From the IMG/VR virus record IMGVR_UViG_3300041955_000659, positions 1 through 21,542 of that record: DNA of 21,542 nt, one strand, 5' to 3'. A program made the position numbers and the translations under genes. Shown here one piece after another: positions 3,073 through 21,542 of this stretch (position 1 is its first letter; every line of letters begins with the position of its first letter). Origin of the DNA: a virus. Below the pieces are notes generated by a model, which saw only the letters and a list, made by a program, of their open reading frames with translations, ran no database searches and had not been told where the DNA came from.

Positions 3073-3137
3073 TGTAAAGGGGGGGCTTTACAAACGCGGC
3101 GAATCAGTTTAGACGCCTTGACCCTAGGTGGAGGGTC
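3073..3137 (+). promoter_or_regulatory. Leader hairpins upstream of the NusG-like gene
   Basis: Two inverted repeats precede the first late gene. TGTAAAG (3073-3079) pairs with CTTTACA (3086-3092) across six Gs. GACCCT (3120-3125) pairs with AGGGTC (3132-3137) across AGGTGG. The second would sequester the presumed Shine-Dalgarno (GGAGGG, 3130-3135) of ATG 3145. They may be an operator, a translational control hairpin or a recruitment element for the NusG-like factor. These roles are inference. Confidence 0.4.
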
Positions 3138-3144
3138 GGCGCGC

Positions 3145-3588
3145 ATGGAGTGGGTAGCGACCGTGGTGGCACCAAACTGCGAGAGACGCGTCGAGCGCGA
3201 TCTGCGCCGCCAGGACATCACCGAGATCTACTCCCCCCGCTTCCGCGACAGTCGCTTCCCCAAGAATCCCCCCCGCTCGCTCTTCCCAGGATACATCTTC
3301 GCTCGTGTAGCCGCTGTCACGTGGCGCGCGCTGCTCGGCACGCGGGGCGTGCTGGCGGCGCTGACGTCGCCCGTGCTGGGCCACGAGATAGAGCGGCTGC
3401 GCGCCAGCGAGCGCGGCGGGCTAGTCGTCGTGCCGGAGCCCGATCCGTGGATGCTCGGCGCGACTGTTCATCTTCAGCGTCTGGGCTGCGTTGGCGTCAT
3501 CGACGCGTGTCTGGGCGCGAGCAGAGTACGTGTCGATCTAGGGCACGTGAGAGCAACCGTGAACGTAGCTGACCTGGTTCTCGCCTGA
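3145..3588 (+). CDS. NusG/RfaH-family transcription factor
   Basis: This 147-residue protein matches the NusG family end to end. The NGN domain comes first: MEWVATVVAPNCERRVERDL, then EIYSPRFRD and RSLFPGYIFARV around residues 48-59, then a GTRGVLAAL segment. A C-terminal KOW-like domain follows (MLGATVHLQRLGCVGVIDAC near residues 102-121, ending VNVADLVLA). Family members bind the clamp helices of RNA polymerase and adjust pausing or termination. ATG 3145 is chosen because NusG proteins begin immediately before the Trp strand; a TTG at 3118 would add nine unconserved residues. GGAGGG lies nine bases upstream. Its place as first gene of the late operon, just before terminase, suggests it promotes read-through of this long unit. 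It is shorter than cellular NusG (about 180 residues). Confidence 0.85.
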   Translation: MEWVATVVAPNCERRVERDLRRQDITEIYSPRFRDSRFPKNPPRSLFPGYIFARVAAVTWRALLGTRGVLAALTSPVLGHEIERLRASERGGLVVVPEPDPWMLGATVHLQRLGCVGVIDACLGASRVRVDLGHVRATVNVADLVLA

Positions 3589-6250: not shown

Positions 6251-7991
6251 GAAGTCACAGAAACGTCCGCGCCGTCCTCCCTCCCGGAGCAGGCGCGGAC
6301 GTGGCGCCGCCGCTCATCCCCGTCCCCCCAGACAGAAGCGGCGGCGCCAGTCACCTCAAGAGAAGACCGCGCGTAAGCAGACGCTGAAGCAGGCTACGCT
6401 GACCCCGCGACAGGCCGCGCGCATTACTCACGAGATCGTGGCACGTGCCCGAAAAGGGCGCCCCCCGCTCGTGCCGATGATGATGGACAGCGTCTTCGCG
6501 CCCGCCAGGCCTCCTCCGGGGGTCGTGCCCAAGAAGGCGCAGATCGCGCTGGACAGCGCGCAGAATCAGGTCATCCAGTGGGCCGGGCAGTTCGGCTTCT
6601 ACAACGGTACGTTCGCGCAGGGCTACACGTTCATGGGGTACCCGTACCTGGCCGAGCTGGCGCAGGTGCCGGAGTACCGAGTCATCACCGAGACGCTCGC
6701 GGAGGAGATGACTCGCAAGTGGATCCGCTTCCAGGCGGTAGGCGACGACGATCTGGACGAGCAGCGCGCCGACCGAATCCACGAGCTCGAGGACCGCATG
6801 GACGAGCTCGTGGTGCGTGACGTGTTCCGCCGCACGGACGAGCTCGACGGCTTCTTCGGGCGTGGACACATCTACATAGACCTCGGCAATACCGAGGAGC
6901 GCGAGGAGCTCCGCACCAGCATCGGCAACGGGCGCGACGCCGTCAGTCGTCGCAAGATAGGGCGCCGGAACAAGATCTACGCGCTGCGTCCCGTGGAGCC
7001 GGTTTGGACGTACCCCACCACGTACAACAGCGATGATCCGCTGCGGCCCGACTGGTACGCGCCGACGCACTGGTTTGTGATGGGCAAGGAGGTCCACGTC
7101 TCGCGGCTGCTGCCGTTTGTCAGTCGGCCGGTGCCGGACCTGCTGAAGCCAGCGTACTCGTTCGGTGGTCTGAGCATGTCGCAGATGGCCAAACCCTACG
7201 TGGACAACTGGCTGCAGACGCGGCAGTCGGTGAACGAGGGCGTCCACACCTACTCCACGATGGTGCTGGGCACCAACCTGGCGGAGTCCATGCAGCAGGG
7301 TGGTGAGCAGCTGTTCATGCGCGCCGAGCTCTTCAACGCTACGCGGGACAACCGCGGGCTGATGATGACGGACAAGGAGTCCGAGACCCTGGAGAACGTG
7401 GCGGTGCCGCTGGGCTCGCTCGATCTGCTCCAGGCGCAGGCACAGGAGCACATGTGTGCGGTGAGCAAGACGCCCACCGTCAAGCTGCTCGGCTTGCAGC
7501 CCGCGGGCCTGAACGCGTCCAGCGAGGACATGATGCGCGTCTTCGAGGACATGATCGCCGCTCGGCAGGAGCGCTTCTACCGCCCGCACCTGACTAAGAT
7601 CGTGCACCTGGTCATGCTCGAGCTCTGGGGCGAGGTGGACGAGAGTATTACATTTCAGTTCGTGCCGCTGCGCTCCCTGGACGAGCGCGGGCAGGCGGAG
7701 GTGCAGAAGATCAAGGCGGAGACGGACGTCGTCCTCGTGGACGGCAATATCCTCCACACCGAGGAGTCGCGGCAGCGCATCGCCGACGATCCCAACTCGC
7801 CGTATCCGGGGCTCGACGCGGACGACGTGCCGATAGAACCAGAAGACGAGATCTCCGGTGGCGAGGAGGGTGGGGGGCTGACGAAGACGAAGATAAACGT
7901 GGCGGGTGGCGACGAGGCCGCGCTCGCGGCGAACGGGGGTGTCCCGCTCGGAGCGCGGAGGCGCAGACAGAATGCCGCGCCGACGCACTAG
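6240..7991 (+). CDS. Portal protein (DUF1073 type)
   Basis: The portal is the dodecameric ring at the capsid vertex through which DNA passes. The body matches DUF1073 portals: VIQWAGQFGFYNG and FMGYPYLAELAQVPEYRVITETLAEEMTRKW near the start, FGRGHIYIDLG, then SFGGLSMSQMAKPYVDNW, and the late SKTPTVKLLGLQPAGLNASSED segment. The first 80 or so residues are extremely basic and probably disordered. No ATG lies near the expected start. TTG 6240 is preferred because GGAAG lies six bases upstream, giving 583 residues; TTG 6207 in frame would add 11. Either overlaps the preceding gene. The acidic C-terminus overlaps the next start at 7972. Position after terL and before a gpF-like protein is canonical. 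Confidence 0.88.
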   Translation: MPSKKSQKRPRRPPSRSRRGRGAAAHPRPPRQKRRRQSPQEKTARKQTLKQATLTPRQAARITHEIVARARKGRPPLVPMMMDSVFAPARPPPGVVPKKAQIALDSAQNQVIQWAGQFGFYNGTFAQGYTFMGYPYLAELAQVPEYRVITETLAEEMTRKWIRFQAVGDDDLDEQRADRIHELEDRMDELVVRDVFRRTDELDGFFGRGHIYIDLGNTEEREELRTSIGNGRDAVSRRKIGRRNKIYALRPVEPVWTYPTTYNSDDPLRPDWYAPTHWFVMGKEVHVSRLLPFVSRPVPDLLKPAYSFGGLSMSQMAKPYVDNWLQTRQSVNEGVHTYSTMVLGTNLAESMQQGGEQLFMRAELFNATRDNRGLMMTDKESETLENVAVPLGSLDLLQAQAQEHMCAVSKTPTVKLLGLQPAGLNASSEDMMRVFEDMIAARQERFYRPHLTKIVHLVMLELWGEVDESITFQFVPLRSLDERGQAEVQKIKAETDVVLVDGNILHTEESRQRIADDPNSPYPGLDADDVPIEPEDEISGGEEGGGLTKTKINVAGGDEAALAANGGVPLGARRRRQNAAPTH

Positions 7992-9576
7992 AGACGTCGT
8001 GCTCCGCCCCGTCCGCCCCAACGCGGGCCTGGAGGCATGCTACCGCAAGCGGCTGCGTCGTCTTGTCGAGCAGATGACGCGCTCCGTGCTCTATTGGGTG
8101 CGGGCCGCGTACCGCGCCAACGAGCCGGAACTGGCACAGGACGCCAACGCTGCGACCGAGCTGCGCCGCGCGTTGCGGAAGCTCACGGCGCGGTGGCAGT
8201 CGCGCTTCGACGAGGCGAGCGAGGAGATGGCGGAGTGGTTCGCGCAGTCGGCCTCCGCCCGCAGCGACGCCAGCATGCGGCGCATCCTGCGCAACGGCGG
8301 CCTCAGCGTGCGCACGCGGCACACGCCCGCGCAGCGCGAGGTCATGGGCGCGATAGTCGCGGAGAACGTGGCGCTGATCAAAAGCATTCCGCAGCGCTAT
8401 CTCGGCGCGGTTGAGGGCTCCGTGATGCGCTCGGTGCAGACGGGGCGCGACCTCAGCGCGCTGACCAAGGAGCTGCAGAAGGAGCACGGCGTCACGTCGC
8501 GCCGGGCCGCGCTGATAGCGCGGGACCAGAACAACAAGGCCACCGCGGCGCTGCACCGCGTGCGGCAGACGGAGCTCGGCATCACGGAGGCCATCTGGCT
8601 GCACTCCGGCGGCGGCAAGCACCCGCGGCCAACGCACAAGCGCAACAGCGGCAAGCGCTACAACGTGGCGGAGGGATGGTACGATCCGGAGGTCAAGCGG
8701 AACGTGTTCCCCGGAGAGCTCATAAATTGTTTTCCAGGCCAATCAAAGATCCAGTTCGCGCGTAATATAGAAGTAGCGTACCGGCGTTTCTACACAGGCG
8801 AATTGGCCTTTTTGGTTACGGAATCTGGTAAAACGCTCCGAGCGACACCAAATCACCCGGTTCTTACGAAACGAGGGTGGGTCCCGATAAGTTTGGTCGA
8901 TGTAGGCGACTACATCACTGAGATTGCCTCGGACACAATCATTCCTGCCGTAGCTGAAAGCTATGTAGATAACACAGTACCCTCTCTTGTTGAGATATTT
9001 GATTCTCTTGCGAGAACGGGGAAGGTTAGGCCGAGGTCGTCCCTGGGTTACTTCCACGGCGATGCTGTCTGCGATAGCAATGTCGATGTTGTAGATGCCG
9101 CAAGGCCGTTGAGCTTCGACAGTTTTGAACTGCTTAGAAAGAGCCGAGAAAACCAGATCTTCACAGGCTCCAATTATCCTAGACTTGCGCATAGCTTTGT
9201 TTCTAAGCTCTTTACGCGAGGCTTTTTTGCCACGGCGCGCTTCGTTGGCTTTTCTGGTAATTTCTTTGCGCCTTTTAGGACTTTCTTTTTGCATCCGCAA
9301 CTTGTTGGCTTCTCCGAGCGTTCTTCTGGTTCCTCCTGCAGCCAAGATACGATTAAGAACAGGTCCTCTGTCGATTTGAAATTTTTTGGCGAGAGCCGCG
9401 AGACTAATCCCCTTTTCATATTGCCGACGAAGCATTCTCGCGTCACCCATGTCGATGTAACCACGTTTGATGGACATGTCTACAACCTCCAGACTTCTGA
9501 CGGATGGTACGTGACCGGGGGGATCATAACACACAATTGTCGCTGTGTGTCACGCAGCGTGATACCGGGACTGTAG
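7972..9576 (+). CDS. Mu gpF-like head morphogenesis protein interrupted by an intein
   Basis: The 534-residue precursor is a minor head protein of the Mu F/SPP1 gp7 family, which associates with the portal and internal capsid. Family hallmarks are ALIARDQNNKATAALHRVRQ around residues 181-200, WLHSGGGKHPRPTHKR, and the C-terminal PGELIN...CRC. The PGELIN and CRC parts are separated by 270 intein residues (codons 8728-9537). Without the intein the host protein would be 264 residues: 252 before and 12 after (CRCVSRSVIPGL). ATG 7972 has GGAGG ten bases upstream; an in-frame GTG at 7906 lies deep in portal and is rejected. The start overlaps portal. The insert is much less GC-rich than the exteins (one 60-base line at 9241 is 40% GC versus 65% at 8641). 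Confidence 0.9.
   Translation: MPRRRTRDVVLRPVRPNAGLEACYRKRLRRLVEQMTRSVLYWVRAAYRANEPELAQDANAATELRRALRKLTARWQSRFDEASEEMAEWFAQSASARSDASMRRILRNGGLSVRTRHTPAQREVMGAIVAENVALIKSIPQRYLGAVEGSVMRSVQTGRDLSALTKELQKEHGVTSRRAALIARDQNNKATAALHRVRQTELGITEAIWLHSGGGKHPRPTHKRNSGKRYNVAEGWYDPEVKRNVFPGELINCFPGQSKIQFARNIEVAYRRFYTGELAFLVTESGKTLRATPNHPVLTKRGWVPISLVDVGDYITEIASDTIIPAVAESYVDNTVPSLVEIFDSLARTGKVRPRSSLGYFHGDAVCDSNVDVVDAARPLSFDSFELLRKSRENQIFTGSNYPRLAHSFVSKLFTRGFFATARFVGFSGNFFAPFRTFFLHPQLVGFSERSSGSSCSQDTIKNRSSVDLKFFGESRETNPLFILPTKHSRVTHVDVTTFDGHVYNLQTSDGWYVTGGIITHNCRCVSRSVIPGL
8743..9477 (-). CDS. Antisense-nested homing endonuclease (HTH + Vsr/PD-(D/E)XK-like)
   Basis: This 244-residue gene lies wholly inside the intein on the opposite strand. 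N-terminal helix-turn-helix: LRRQYEKGISLAALAKKF then DRGPVLNRILAAGG, residues about 16-49. A very basic linker follows (RTLGEANKLRMQ, then RRKEITRKANEARRG), similar to linkers in Vsr-like homing nucleases. The nuclease core at about 100-175 is IIGACEDLVFSALSKQF, GIYNIDIAIADSIAVEV, then KYLNKRGYCVIYIAFSYG. Candidate catalytic residues are E106, D132 and E142. Its role would be to cut intein-less alleles so that repair copies the intein. ATG 9477 is chosen because GGAGGT lies seven bases upstream. The frame opens to a GTG at 9534, three bases inside the intein edge; the TGA is at 8745-8743. Its codon boundaries coincide with the intein frame. Nuclease-family placement is by motif only; activity is inferred. 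Confidence 0.82.
   Translation of the reverse strand: MSIKRGYIDMGDARMLRRQYEKGISLAALAKKFQIDRGPVLNRILAAGGTRRTLGEANKLRMQKESPKRRKEITRKANEARRGKKASRKELRNKAMRKSRIIGACEDLVFSALSKQFKTVEAQRPCGIYNIDIAIADSIAVEVTQGRPRPNLPRSRKRIKYLNKRGYCVIYIAFSYGRNDCVRGNLSDVVAYIDQTYRDPPSFRKNRVIWCRSERFTRFRNQKGQFACVETPVRYFYITRELDL
9485..9528 (-). promoter_or_regulatory. Shine-Dalgarno and extended -10-like sequence for the antisense gene
   Basis: On the minus strand GGAGGT (9490-9485) lies seven bases before ATG 9477, which is essentially consensus. Further upstream TATGAT (9528-9523) is preceded by TGT (9531-9529), making an extended -10 pattern TGnTATGAT; transcription from it would begin near 9516. No good -35 is seen at 17 bases. 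The Shine-Dalgarno is antisense to the Asn-Leu-Gln codons of block F, and the -10 is antisense to the Ile-Ile codons of block G. The ribosome site is strong; the promoter is a candidate only. Confidence 0.55.
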
Positions 9577-17534: not shown

Positions 17535-17900
17535 ATGCGTAGGTTTTTGCACCCCCCGGTCGTTCTGCTCCTTCTTACACTCCTGAGCGGGGGGGCATTC
17601 GCTCAGGCCGGGCTGCGACAGGTTCCTCTGGGATTCTGCAGCCTCTCGTCCATGTCGGCCGCGACGGGGCTGGCCTCCTGCTCGGGGGGCATTCCGGCCG
17701 GGACCGCCTATGCGGTCATCTGCGCGTACGTGCAGGGCGTCGTCTGGCGCGATGACGGCACCGCGCCCACGGGCACACCCGGCACGGGCGGTCAGGGCAT
17801 CGCCGCCAACCAGTGCCTACCCTACAACGGGACGTTCACGGCGTTCCAGGTCATACAGCAGACGTCCGGAGCCATTCTCGGAGTCTCGTTCTACCGATGA
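17535..17900 (+). CDS. Small phage virion-type protein with signal peptide
   Basis: This 121-residue protein begins with a signal peptide (MRRFLHPPVVLLLLTLLSGGAFAQ, likely cleaved after AFA). The mature part fits a common small phage structural pattern: LSSMSAATGL, then VICAYVQGVVWRDDGTAP, a GQGIAANQCLPYNG turn, and FTAFQVIQQTSGAILGVSFY at the end. In relatives that I recall, the same domain has no signal peptide, so its presence here is notable. Four Cys residues in the mature part could form disulfides if exported. GGAGG lies upstream of ATG 17535, and its stop overlaps the next ATG (ATGA). Confidence 0.7.
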   Translation: MRRFLHPPVVLLLLTLLSGGAFAQAGLRQVPLGFCSLSSMSAATGLASCSGGIPAGTAYAVICAYVQGVVWRDDGTAPTGTPGTGGQGIAANQCLPYNGTFTAFQVIQQTSGAILGVSFYR

Positions 17901-19561
17901 CCCGCCTTCTCGTCGCGCTGTTCTTCGTGCTGGTGGCGAGCACCACTCTTGCTCAGATGCCTCCCAGCTACTGGTCGCCGATGGTTCCTGGCGGTCCAAG
18001 CCCGATAGTCAGTGTTGGTTCCAGTATCCCGGGACCGTTGTTTTCCATTATCAACAATTACCAGCCTGGAGCATCCAGCCTCATATCGACCACTCAGGTC
18101 TCGCACTACGATACTGATGGCAACGTGATCGACGCCCATGCGGGCAACCTTCTCCAAGTCGGCGGGACGTTCTATCTATACGGCGAGTCCCACGCTTGCG
18201 GCTTCACGCCGGGCACGGGCGGTAATCCTTGGTGTGGCGTTAAGGTCTATTCGTCAACCGACCTGAGAATTTGGACTTACCGCGGATATCTGTTTGACGG
18301 TTCAACTGGAACATGGCAGACCAACTGCGCTACGACAAATAACGGTTATAGTGGCTGTTACTCGCCGAAGATGCTCTACAATGCAGCAAACAATAACTAT
18401 GTCTTGTGGATCTACGGTGCTGATAATTCTGGTGACGGCACTTTTTATGTTTTTACCTGCACCTCTCCGACTGGTGGCGCAACGCCGACTATGCCGGGCA
18501 CAGGATGCACGCAGCAAGCCAACGCAACGATGCCGACCTCGCAGGCGGAAGCGCCGTCGTTCTACGTCGATGGCAGCGGCAACGGCTATGCGGCCTATAC
18601 CGATCTGGGAAATTCCTATTCGGTCAGAGTGGTTGCCCTCAACTCCGCTTTCACCAGCACAACGGGATCGCCAACGGCGACTGGGCAGTCGGGAGAAGGC
18701 AATTTCATCTTCCAGCAAGGGGGCAATTTCGTCGGATTTGGTTCCATGGGCTGCGCTTACTGCGACACTGCGGCGACGGTGGTAGTTTCTGCGACAAGCC
18801 CGCTCGGAACCTACGGCTCTCCGACCACGATCAGGAGCGATTCCTGCCAGGGTCAGCCGCGCGACGCTTCCGTCCTGACCACGCTCGGCACTCCCGTTCT
18901 CTACATGAGCGACCAATGGTGGGCGCAAGGTGGTGGCGGACGTTGGAATCAGGGCTTTGCCAATATCTACTTTCAGCCGTTGACGGTCACGGCCGGTGTG
19001 GTTCAACCGTTCTCATGTTCTGCTCAAGTGCAGATCAACGGTCTTTCGGGCGGTAGCTTTCAGAGTCCCGGCGATCCCGACCAGACCGACTTCGGCGACG
19101 TGTTTCTCAACTACTGCGACATCGCCTCCGGTCTGTGGAGGATGCAGACCTTCGTTCCGACGCGATCAACCGTTGCCTCGGTTTCTCTTCCGCTTGCCAA
19201 GAACAACGCAAGTTGCGCCGTTGCATCAGCCTGCTCGGATCCCAATGGATCGGTCACGGTCTCGCTCGTGACCTTGGATGGTAGCAACAATCCGGTAACG
19301 ACGCTCGCGTCACAGAACATCCCGGTCGCAAGCCTCATGTGGGCGCCGCAGTGGACTAATGTGACATTCAATCAAACAGTCACTCCGGGAACGGCCTACG
19401 GGATCGTCCTATCAAGCAACACGACGACGGGGTGCATCGGAACGGCTTTCAACACCGCAGGCTCGGCGCCGTATCCGACTGGTGTGGAGCGCGTTTCAAC
19501 CAATAGCGGTGGCAGTTGGACCACGGAGGCTAGCCGCTCACTGATGTTTTCAAGCTATTAG
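17897..19561 (+). CDS. GH43-like beta-propeller protein with signal peptide (putative glycan-degrading tail protein)
   Basis: The 554-residue product starts with a signal peptide (MTRLLVALFFVLVASTTLAQ). Residues 65-370 resemble GH43 five-bladed propellers of the galactanase-like type. Visible blade motifs are DGNVIDAHAGNLL with Asp79, VKVYSSTDLRIW, YSPKMLYNAANNNYVLWIYG, GEGNFIFQQGGNFVGFG with candidate acid Glu267, and VLYMSDQWW. The usual Glu-Arg-Pro-Lys motif reads YSPK, so activity may be altered. Residues about 400-554 form a separate jelly-roll-like domain (FVPTRSTVASVSLPLA, then WTNVTFNQTVTPGTAYGIVLSS). A role in degrading host surface polysaccharide is inferred. ATG 17897 overlaps the previous stop. 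GC content drops within the first 50 codons, suggesting that a foreign propeller was joined to a resident signal peptide. Confidence 0.72.
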   Translation: MTRLLVALFFVLVASTTLAQMPPSYWSPMVPGGPSPIVSVGSSIPGPLFSIINNYQPGASSLISTTQVSHYDTDGNVIDAHAGNLLQVGGTFYLYGESHACGFTPGTGGNPWCGVKVYSSTDLRIWTYRGYLFDGSTGTWQTNCATTNNGYSGCYSPKMLYNAANNNYVLWIYGADNSGDGTFYVFTCTSPTGGATPTMPGTGCTQQANATMPTSQAEAPSFYVDGSGNGYAAYTDLGNSYSVRVVALNSAFTSTTGSPTATGQSGEGNFIFQQGGNFVGFGSMGCAYCDTAATVVVSATSPLGTYGSPTTIRSDSCQGQPRDASVLTTLGTPVLYMSDQWWAQGGGGRWNQGFANIYFQPLTVTAGVVQPFSCSAQVQINGLSGGSFQSPGDPDQTDFGDVFLNYCDIASGLWRMQTFVPTRSTVASVSLPLAKNNASCAVASACSDPNGSVTVSLVTLDGSNNPVTTLASQNIPVASLMWAPQWTNVTFNQTVTPGTAYGIVLSSNTTTGCIGTAFNTAGSAPYPTGVERVSTNSGGSWTTEASRSLMFSSY

Positions 19562-19563
19562 AG

Positions 19564-21542
19564 ATGAGTCCGACATTTGGCGGCGGAGGTCTCCTTCTAG
19601 GCTCTCCTAATCAGGGAGGTGGCACAACATGGTCAGAGGAATTTGTCGGACCTCTTGCTAGCTGGTTGAATGTTCAAACTGGCTTCGGTGCAGTTGGCAA
19701 TGGAACGACCGATGACACAACGGCCATCCAAAACGCTCTAAACACAATTACGGCTGGCGGACAACCGAACCTTTACTTTCCTCCCGGCACTTACAAAGTC
19801 ACGAGCACGTTGAGCCTCATCGGCAACCTCGGCCTTTCGCTCATTGGTGCCGATCCTGCAACGACACGGATTCAGTGGGCAGGATCAAGCGGTGGGACAA
19901 TCCTGCACATTGATGGTGTGGCTTATGGCCGTTACCAGCGCATGACCATCGATGGCGCGGGAACTGCTGGTATTCTGATCGACCAGACGGCCACAAGTGG
20001 ATCACCACCACGAAACTTCGACACCGGAAACCAATATTCAGACCTCATTTTGCAAAATGCTGTCACCGCCCTCCAAGGCGGCAACGATAATATAGGCGCA
20101 GCAGAGAGCACCGTTCTCCGCGTTGTGTTCAACAACATCACGGCCTATGGCGTCAGCATATGCAATTTTAATGCGCTCGATTGGTGGCTTTGGTATTGCA
20201 CGTTCAACAATGTGGCTGTCGGAGTTACGAATTATGCCAACGCCAACACTAGCCATGCTGGCAATTATCGCATCTATGGTTGCTTGTTCAACTCCCCAAC
20301 CAATACATTTGATATCAATTACTTAAATACTGGCATCTTTTCGTTCCGAGACAACTATAGCCAGTCGTTCAAGTTTTTTCAAGCCGAGTATTTCTATTCG
20401 AACGCGGCAAATACCTTTTTGCAATCCAATACCGTCAAGATGGCAACGCGCGGCGATCAGTACAACGGCACCACAGTCTATTTTGGTAACATGGGACCGC
20501 TGTTCTTGTTCGACAACGTCATGCAGAGCCCGTCAAACGCGGTGCTAAACAACGGGACGAATAACCCCATCATCGCTGGAACATTGAACGCTTCGGACAT
20601 TCTTTCCCTTGACGGTACTTACACGCTTGCCAATCCGGTTTATTCGACACCTACGGCGCGGGAGATCGAATATGGCGATCAGACTGTCCTCTATAGTTCG
20701 CTCTCGTTGTCCCCACCGACATTGCCTGGTGTGCTTCCAAACTATAATCGAACCATCTTTGAGATAACCGCTGGGGCATCTACTGCGACCATTCAAGCGG
20801 CGATTACGTCGGCCGCCGCACTAAACGGAAACCGACCTGTTGTACACCTTCAAGCTGGTTCATACACGCTGACGACTGCACTCACGATCCCGGTCTGCGA
20901 CCTGCAACTCATCGGAGATGGGTTCGGCAATCAGAATGGGACCGTGCTTAACTGGGGCGGTTCGGGAGCAGCCATTATCTTGCAGGGACCGTCACATGTG
21001 ATATTGCAGGAATTTTACTTGGCGGCTGGCACCGGCATTGGGATCGCAATCCAGAATGCTGATCAGGTTGGTGCCAGAATTTTCATGCAGCAACCGTTGT
21101 TGACGGCATCGACTGCTGGTGGCCTATTCGTCAATGGTTTGGACTATGCGCTAGTCGAGGGCCACGACACTGAACTTGAAGGGCAAGTGGCTGGATTGAT
21201 CGTGGTCGGAGGTACGCACGCTGCGGCAGGAAACCCGCAGGGTGGTCAAACGCACATCCTTTCAGGCAGCGGTGTCGGCAACGGAATGACCATCAGCCTC
21301 TCAAGCGGCGGCACTCTGGTATTCCGCGACGTGTGGGCAGAAAGTGATAGCATTTCCACGTTTATCCAAGCGTCAGGCCCCAGCACTCTCCTAGTGGAAG
21401 GTTGCCGGATGGCTTTTCCTGGAGGGCAGACCGGGCCGACCTTTGAATTCATTAGCTTTAGCGGCAACGCTACGATCCTCGGGAATCAGCCGGACACCAA
21501 CGTCTCGATAGATGCGGCATCAACGGGCAATGTGTGGGTAGT
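19564..21542 (+). CDS. Beta-helix tailspike (pectate-lyase superfamily), 3' end outside the window
   Basis: An open frame from ATG 19564, two bases after the previous stop, continues without interruption for 659 codons to the window edge. The first module begins WLNVQTGFGAVGNGTTDDTT (residues about 34-53) and continues through LYFPPGTYKVTSTLSL. That is the classic N-terminal cap of phage right-handed beta-helix tailspikes of the pectate-lyase/GH28-like superfamily. A second similar entry begins near residue 400 (ITAGASTATIQAAITSAAAL, then VVHLQAGSYTLTTALTIP), so two beta-helix modules seem to be present. Beta-helix coils rich in Asn, Gly and Thr follow each. It probably recognises and cleaves a host surface glycan. 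Composition is far less GC-rich than the head genes, suggesting horizontal exchange. The C-terminal trimerisation part is not visible. Confidence 0.8.
   Translation, partial: MSPTFGGGGLLLGSPNQGGGTTWSEEFVGPLASWLNVQTGFGAVGNGTTDDTTAIQNALNTITAGGQPNLYFPPGTYKVTSTLSLIGNLGLSLIGADPATTRIQWAGSSGGTILHIDGVAYGRYQRMTIDGAGTAGILIDQTATSGSPPRNFDTGNQYSDLILQNAVTALQGGNDNIGAAESTVLRVVFNNITAYGVSICNFNALDWWLWYCTFNNVAVGVTNYANANTSHAGNYRIYGCLFNSPTNTFDINYLNTGIFSFRDNYSQSFKFFQAEYFYSNAANTFLQSNTVKMATRGDQYNGTTVYFGNMGPLFLFDNVMQSPSNAVLNNGTNNPIIAGTLNASDILSLDGTYTLANPVYSTPTAREIEYGDQTVLYSSLSLSPPTLPGVLPNYNRTIFEITAGASTATIQAAITSAAALNGNRPVVHLQAGSYTLTTALTIPVCDLQLIGDGFGNQNGTVLNWGGSGAAIILQGPSHVILQEFYLAAGTGIGIAIQNADQVGARIFMQQPLLTASTAGGLFVNGLDYALVEGHDTELEGQVAGLIVVGGTHAAAGNPQGGQTHILSGSGVGNGMTISLSSGGTLVFRDVWAESDSISTFIQASGPSTLLVEGCRMAFPGGQTGPTFEFISFSGNATILGNQPDTNVSIDAASTGNVWV

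Follow-up and report, generated by a model that had tools for sequence, protein, structure and literature searches.

The stretch of viral DNA analyzed here (the window; 21,542 nucleotides, positions 1 to 21,542 of IMG/VR virus record IMGVR_UViG_3300041955_000659) carries on its plus strand a phage Mu F-like (MuF) head morphogenesis gene (7906-9576; PF04233, E = 2.2e-10; phrog_324, E = 2e-72; the 5' start is putative) that is interrupted by an intein. On the minus strand of the intein lies an open reading frame (ORF) of 244 amino acids (8743-9477) for a protein with a helix-turn-helix (HTH) and a Vsr-like nuclease region, a probable homing endonuclease. An earlier reading of the letters alone, hereafter the original prediction, had proposed that the expression signals of this antisense gene are embedded in the conserved splicing blocks of the intein. 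The intein spans 8728-9537 (plus strand, 270 amino acids; PF14890, E = 5.9e-6), begins with Cys1, ends in His-Asn followed by Cys+1, and separates an N-extein (7906-8727) from a C-extein (9538-9576). Its block A (CFPGQSKIQF, read directly from the sequence) lies at 8728-8757, the TPNH core of block B at 8845-8856, block F (GHVYNLQT) at 9472-9495 and block G (Ile-Ile-Thr-His-Asn) at 9523-9537. Residues C1, T40, H43, and N270 are invariant among 44 relatives, T40 and H43 belonging to the block B core, and the window has His-Asn|Cys at the downstream junction; these conserved splicing residues suggest that the intein is spliced from the head protein. The Pfam Intein_splicing profile (PF14890) scored 26.6 bits on the window protein, with a curated cut-off of 35.8, and three relatives scored above that cut-off (loci L163, L185, and L146 at 39.1, 45.8, and 37.4 bits, respectively). 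The AlphaFold2 model of the sense intein had a predicted local distance difference test score (pLDDT) of ~95 at residues 1-66 and 231-270 and of ~50 at residues 140-230, and the sense region matching the antisense gene is largely unstructured; no nuclease domain was found in the sense reading of the stretch from block B to block F, the nuclease being antisense. A group I intron was considered and rejected, as no Rfam family reached its gathering score in the window.

The antisense ORF begins at an ATG (9477-9475) opposite the CAT codon of the block F His and ends at a TGA (minus 8745-8743) opposite the TCA codon of a block A Ser. It is registered codon-on-codon with the intein frame and overlaps nearly the whole intein. 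To ask which strand's reading selection has guarded, substitutions were counted in 33 pairs of relatives. Over the zone encoding the HTH and the nuclease, differences sat more on antisense codon position 3 (0.436) than on position 1 (0.275), and single differences that were silent in the antisense reading and changed the sense protein numbered 1377, vs. 400 of the reverse type. Opposite blocks A and B the bias flips, with 115 antisense-silent, sense-changing differences vs. 225 of the reverse type. When the alignment was based on the sense protein, the antisense reading was favored in 33/33 pairs (identity 0.676 antisense, 0.512 sense). Since the middle zone is antisense-type and blocks A and B are sense-type, selection guards the antisense protein in the middle of the intein and the sense protein at its splicing end. 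Two motifs conserved in the sense protein, FHGD and DVDVV, map by coordinate exactly opposite the IAVE and YNIDI of the nuclease, and are best read as the shadow of the conserved nuclease motif region. Together with the folded model described below and the wide conservation of the ORF, these antisense-type substitutions show that it is a real gene.

AlphaFold2 modeled the antisense protein with high confidence using 45 family members (mean pLDDT 94.6, predicted template modeling score 0.79). The predicted helices of the HTH region (about residues 10-50; 9328-9450, minus) superimpose on the IstA transposase HTH over 41 residues at a root-mean-square deviation (rmsd) of 1.2, and relatives of the protein give HTH matches in Pfam. 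In the nuclease motif region (9052-9162, minus) Glu106, Gln123, Asp132, and Glu142 are conserved, with Glu106, Asp132, and Glu142 invariant among the 45 members; the four residues fit a nuclease site, and catalysis is predicted. The best Foldseek match in the PDB was the catalytic domain of I-Bth0305I (probability 1.00, E = 0.032), and VIA comparisons gave Z 9.9 with Vsr (1cw0; 112 aligned residues, rmsd 2.8) and Z 8.0 with I-Bth0305I (94 aligned, rmsd 3.5). A profile match to 3hrl was also obtained (E = 6.2e-4), and the REase_MTES_1575 family (PF18741) matched 17/31 members at E values up to 0.1, the best being 5.2e-8. SurE and mitoribosomal chains appeared among the Foldseek and VIA matches as well, mostly at lower scores, and we read them as common folds. 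On this evidence the antisense protein is probably a homing endonuclease composed of an HTH and a Vsr-fold nuclease. Its last 35 residues (207-241) form a confident beta hairpin in the model, though they lie opposite blocks A and B, where sense selection dominates.

Relatives of the antisense protein are common in viral contigs: successive searches recovered 9, 51, and finally 240 of them, and from the last set the best 80 were retained. Named phage records with relatives numbered 60 with the window protein as query and at least 119 with the protein of Klebsiella phage KpTDp1. No cellular relatives were found in two scans of genome contigs, which used short peptide patterns only, so that prophage copies could be missed, and a candidate free-standing relative, the BFVD match A0A3G3BXE8, could not be placed. 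The association with inteins was examined by a scan of viral contigs with the block F pattern of the sense protein, GHVYN[L/F][QE]T, with all Leu codons allowed and the antisense strand not used in the choice. Among the 80 loci listed, 78 had the antisense family on the opposite strand (E of 8.1e-7 or lower), and the remaining two reach a contig edge within 25 codons; the antisense profile already included some of the contigs. As a control, conventional phage inteins were collected by a canonical block G (NHNF[VIM]ANG; 79 candidates, 67 after removal of duplicates). The antisense family was present in 0/67 of them, and the median length of their longest uninterrupted antisense frame was 61 codons. 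Overall, 224 loci were assembled, 215 with an antisense match, of which 15 lacked block F by the pattern used, and nine without one (L105, L120, L131, L144, L150, and L154, all cut by a contig end, and L186, L201, and L216). A non-redundant set of 131 loci (<80% protein identity) served for the codon analyses below. Of these, 3 were left out of the ribosome-site test (n = 128) and 6 out of the -10 test (n = 125), Cys1 could be placed in 119 and not in 12, and in one (L204) the +1 Cys is misplaced in its block G codon row. Some distant members (L058 to L060, L066, L067, and L314) have GHVYDL or lack the His and retain the antisense arrangement; some distant members lie in portal-MuF fusions and in actinophages, and in some the antisense start codon is ambiguous. 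None of nine named phage records (0/9) annotates an antisense coding sequence over the intein. Two further records with the intein differ from each other: one has no antisense annotation and the other, Salmonella phage vB_StyS-sam, has a partial one, in which a 133-amino-acid piece of the antisense nuclease (L313, 1697-2098, plus) is annotated as a hypothetical protein.

The ribosome site proposed for the antisense gene, a Shine-Dalgarno (SD) sequence GGAGGT on the minus strand (9485-9490) with a 7-nt spacer to ATG 9477, is exactly as the original prediction described it, lying opposite the AAC CTC CAG (Asn-Leu-Gln) codons of block F. Across the window, GGAGG-N4-9-ATG occurs 10 times vs. 4.0 expected. 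In the family, the codon opposite the block F His reads ATG in 106/131 loci and GTG in 19/131; at the His position, control inteins carry Asp, Arg, Glu, or other residues. Codon choice at the block F Leu is strongly skewed, CTC being used in 89/121 vs. 26% in the N-exteins of the same genes, and CTC or CTT in 106/121 vs. a background of 38%, and control inteins use CTC at 3/27. Pairing with the anti-SD averaged -5.9 kcal/mol vs. -3.5 kcal/mol after synonymous reshuffling (z = -10.6; 128 loci), and an SD of -4 kcal/mol or better was present in 87/125 members. These results indicate that the block F ribosome site is maintained by codon choice in most members, as judged from sequence comparison. 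One pair of near-identical contigs differs at the antisense start itself, which is ATG in one and ATA in the other (L001 1507-1509 vs. L002 2989-2991); the ATA, which changes the sense block F His to Tyr, is possibly a natural loss of the start codon.

The second signal, an extended -10 element of the sigma70 type, reads TGTTATGAT on the minus strand (9523-9531), again precisely where it had been placed, opposite the ATC ATA ACA (Ile-Ile-Thr) codons of block G and just before His-Asn|Cys. It matches TGNTATAAT at 7/8 positions, and from its spacing transcription would be expected to start at 9516 on the minus strand. The pattern TGNTATRAT occurs once in the window vs. 0.27 expected (at least once in 21/100 shuffles), and 3% of synonymous redraws of the window produced, somewhere in the region, an extended -10 at least as good. 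A consensus promoter scan did not return the site because the scan demands a -35. At this fixed register, the mean match to TGNTATAAT across 125 loci was 5.30/8 vs. 4.44 after reshuffling (z = 13), 30.4% of loci matched at 7/8 or better vs. 4.0% after synonymous reshuffling, and the true -10 consensus ranked 1 of 280 permuted motifs. The bias is spread over three successive codons of block G, each above both extein and intein backgrounds: at position -5, ATT serves 55/91 Ile; at -4, ATA serves 39/68 Ile and GTA 23/38 Val; and at -3, ACA serves 21/50 Thr and GCA 12/25 Ala. The 67 control inteins matched TGNTATAAT at a mean of 3.96, with 4.5% at 7/8 or better, and their codon use was near background. 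Perfect 8/8 elements, TGCTATAAT, are present in the Salmonella and Escherichia coli phages TS6, vB_StyS-sam, and vB_EcoS_GZMU_E2010. A cause of the codon bias on the sense strand was rejected, because the 67 canonical inteins are near background and because the neighboring free wobble site (-18) is flat in codon choice. Thus, the extended -10 opposite block G appears to be preserved beyond coding constraint in many members.

Evidence for movement of the element comes from closely related phages and from the variety of its host genes. Salmonella phage TS6 carries a 272-amino-acid intein at HPN|C, where the near-identical phages GRNsp27 and vB_SenTO17 are empty, and KpTDp1 carries a 325-residue intein at PIN|C that ZCEC13 is without. 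In 112/119 members with Cys1 placed, the antisense ORF terminates opposite residues of the intein, in keeping with the proposal that the intein encloses the whole cassette, from promoter core and ribosome site through the ORF to its stop. Portability to other host genes had also been foreseen, and the same arrangement is found, beyond the MuF genes that are its usual hosts, in portal-MuF fusions (L146, L165, and L185) and in the non-head genes for a dCMP deaminase (L155 and L180) and an HD-domain protein (L204).

We therefore favor, at a probability of about 0.82, the reading that the intein is a mobile element with an antisense homing endonuclease gene, expressed from an internal promoter and SD, and that it homes. 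What we computed in its favor is the gene and its fold, selection on the antisense reading, codon selection for the SD and the -10, and empty and filled sites. Transcription, nuclease activity, its target, splicing, and timing we infer, as follows. The head transcript would be translated, the intein would splice itself out and the head protein would be released. The extended -10 opposite block G would drive an antisense mRNA with a leader of ~39 nt, and the SD opposite block F would direct translation of the HTH and Vsr-like nuclease. The nuclease would then cleave head genes of co-infecting phages at an N|CRC site that no intein interrupts, and the intein would be copied across as the cut gene is repaired. 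An early promoter read by the host polymerase would uncouple the nuclease from the late timing of the head gene. Since the intein contains the promoter core and the ribosome site as well as the ORF and its stop, the cassette could move into other genes without depending on transcription of the host gene. More broadly, it seems likely that the family represents a widespread, overlooked ambigrammatic class of phage intein, with double-coded blocks F and G, an early antisense Vsr-like nuclease, and FHGD and DVDVV as no more than mirror images of its active site.

Several results weigh against this reading, and most of them concern the promoter. Although the evidence for the motifs is strong across the family, in the window alone they are present and suggestive, and neither signal is compelling; 29.5% of synonymous redraws of the window gave an equal or better SD. 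The window protein scored 15.1 bits against REase_MTES_1575, under the curated cut-off of 38.2. No enrichment of a -35 is visible in base frequencies across the 125 loci, and, when the -10 motif was slid to other registers, z ranged from -4.3 to 6.3; values up to 6.3 indicate residual composition bias in the -10 test. The members are related, so the P values are nominal. Between about -480 and -180, TS6 and GRNsp27 show no differences, and their identity falls to 0.77 beside the insertion, but the intein-free pair GRNsp27 and PhiSTP1 also dips, to 0.82, and for that reason the gradient is not counted as co-conversion. The original prediction had looked to codon choice in related inteins, on which the SD stood up well, being retained in most; the -10 fared less evenly, being kept in many but falling below 6/8 in 64/125. 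Related loci that keep the ORF and have lost both signals, the case it had named as contrary, numbered 19/125 at loose thresholds and 4/125 at strict ones. Considering that the SD is wide and that the -10 is so often below 6/8, the SD is general and the internal -10 frequent among members.

This unevenness bears most on an alternative in which a genuine antisense gene uses its SD for translation but is transcribed by read-through from an antisense or convergent promoter outside the intein, the -10 being at most auxiliary or lineage-specific. The SD is the more widespread signal, as 61/125 members have a -10 of 6/8 or more; the closest relative of the window (L071) retains the SD and has TACAAC in place of the -10 (4/8), and examples from Vibrio, Edwardsiella, and Mycobacterium phages match at 2/8. 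Against read-through stand the -10 bias at three successive codon positions of block G, seen here and not in the control inteins, and the perfect elements in Salmonella and E. coli phages, and we consider it unlikely, though deserving of serious weight. A second alternative is that the protein is made and does not home, regulating the intein or the head gene through its HTH or through antisense RNA. The HTH is well conserved and an antisense RNA would presumably span the head mRNA; yet the invariant Glu106, Asp132, and Glu142 are what active homing would be expected to preserve, near-identical phages differ in the presence of the element at one site, and the element resides in unrelated host genes, all of which make a purely regulatory role improbable. 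Finally, that the ORF simply follows from codon bias in the codon-on-codon register, with the motifs a coincidence of conserved Asn-Leu-Gln and Ile-Ile-Thr codons is scarcely credible, for although strong SDs arise readily among synonymous variants of the window and the N-extein too has 0/274 codons that give antisense stops, a chance ORF is refuted by the way the substitutions fall, by the presence of the gene in the sampled loci and its absence from all controls, and also by the folded nuclease model. An internally expressed homing endonuclease gene thus remains our preferred explanation.

Other genes in the window were noted in passing. Just 5' of the packaging genes, a phage-encoded NusG-like protein (3118-3588, plus; PF02357, E = 1.1e-8) might affect transcription of the head operon. 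Farther downstream, glycosyl hydrolase family 43-like (17813-19561, plus) and pectate-lyase-like (19564-21540, plus) proteins are possibly tail depolymerases.

Homing endonucleases of inteins are usually regarded as domains internal to the intein, and this large phage family places the nuclease on the opposite strand. Many phage head genes have been annotated without the second gene that runs across them, and a conserved motif of the sense protein is its shadow. Being compact and movable, and strongly constrained by double coding, such an antisense gene also offers a natural test bed for overlapping genes, and how an intein can move when its own frame encodes no nuclease can be tested directly in E. 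coli phages and with laboratory reporters. No antisense nuclease in an intein was found in searches of an open-licence library, subscription papers being mostly outside the search.

Classic inteins, as reviewed elsewhere (PMC3943268), combine blocks A, B, F, and G with nuclease-driven movement into the uninterrupted gene. Inteins with in-frame LAGLIDADG-type domains share with the window these self-splicing blocks and this mode of mobility, but the window nuclease is a separate protein, encoded on the opposite strand, that has an SD and a -10 to itself; the nuclease gene also overlaps the splicing blocks. The nearest solved folds to its nuclease domain are I-Bth0305I, of the EDxHD nucleases, and Vsr, at 15-17% identity; the window protein differs from both in its DNA-binding part, an HTH, and in its antisense genomic layout. 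Antisense homing genes with a potential internal promoter have been reported in the Didymium nuclear group I introns S956-2 and L2066 (PMC9548176; PMC13182076), which are likewise self-splicing elements with a homing endonuclease gene on the other strand. There, however, the genes are placed in peripheral loops of an rDNA RNA intron, whereas in the window both strands code for protein, codon-on-codon, and the signals lie within splicing-block codons. The ShiLan domain, an out-of-frame HNH hidden in a phage methylase with no detectable ribosome-binding site (PMC11855218), resembles the window in that an insert in a phage gene conceals a homing nuclease in a second, overlapping frame. ShiLan lies on the methylase's own transcript, is of HNH type, and has no splicing domain, in contrast to the antisense, Vsr-like, intein-borne gene with SD and -10 described here. 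Ambigrammatic narnaviruses (PMC8316113) share open frames overlapping on opposite strands; these are simple RNA viruses with a polymerase on the forward strand, whereas the window belongs to a DNA phage in which the forward frame is an intein and the reverse frame a folded nuclease. The element in the window is, in these terms, a variant of the homing intein with its nuclease on the other strand.

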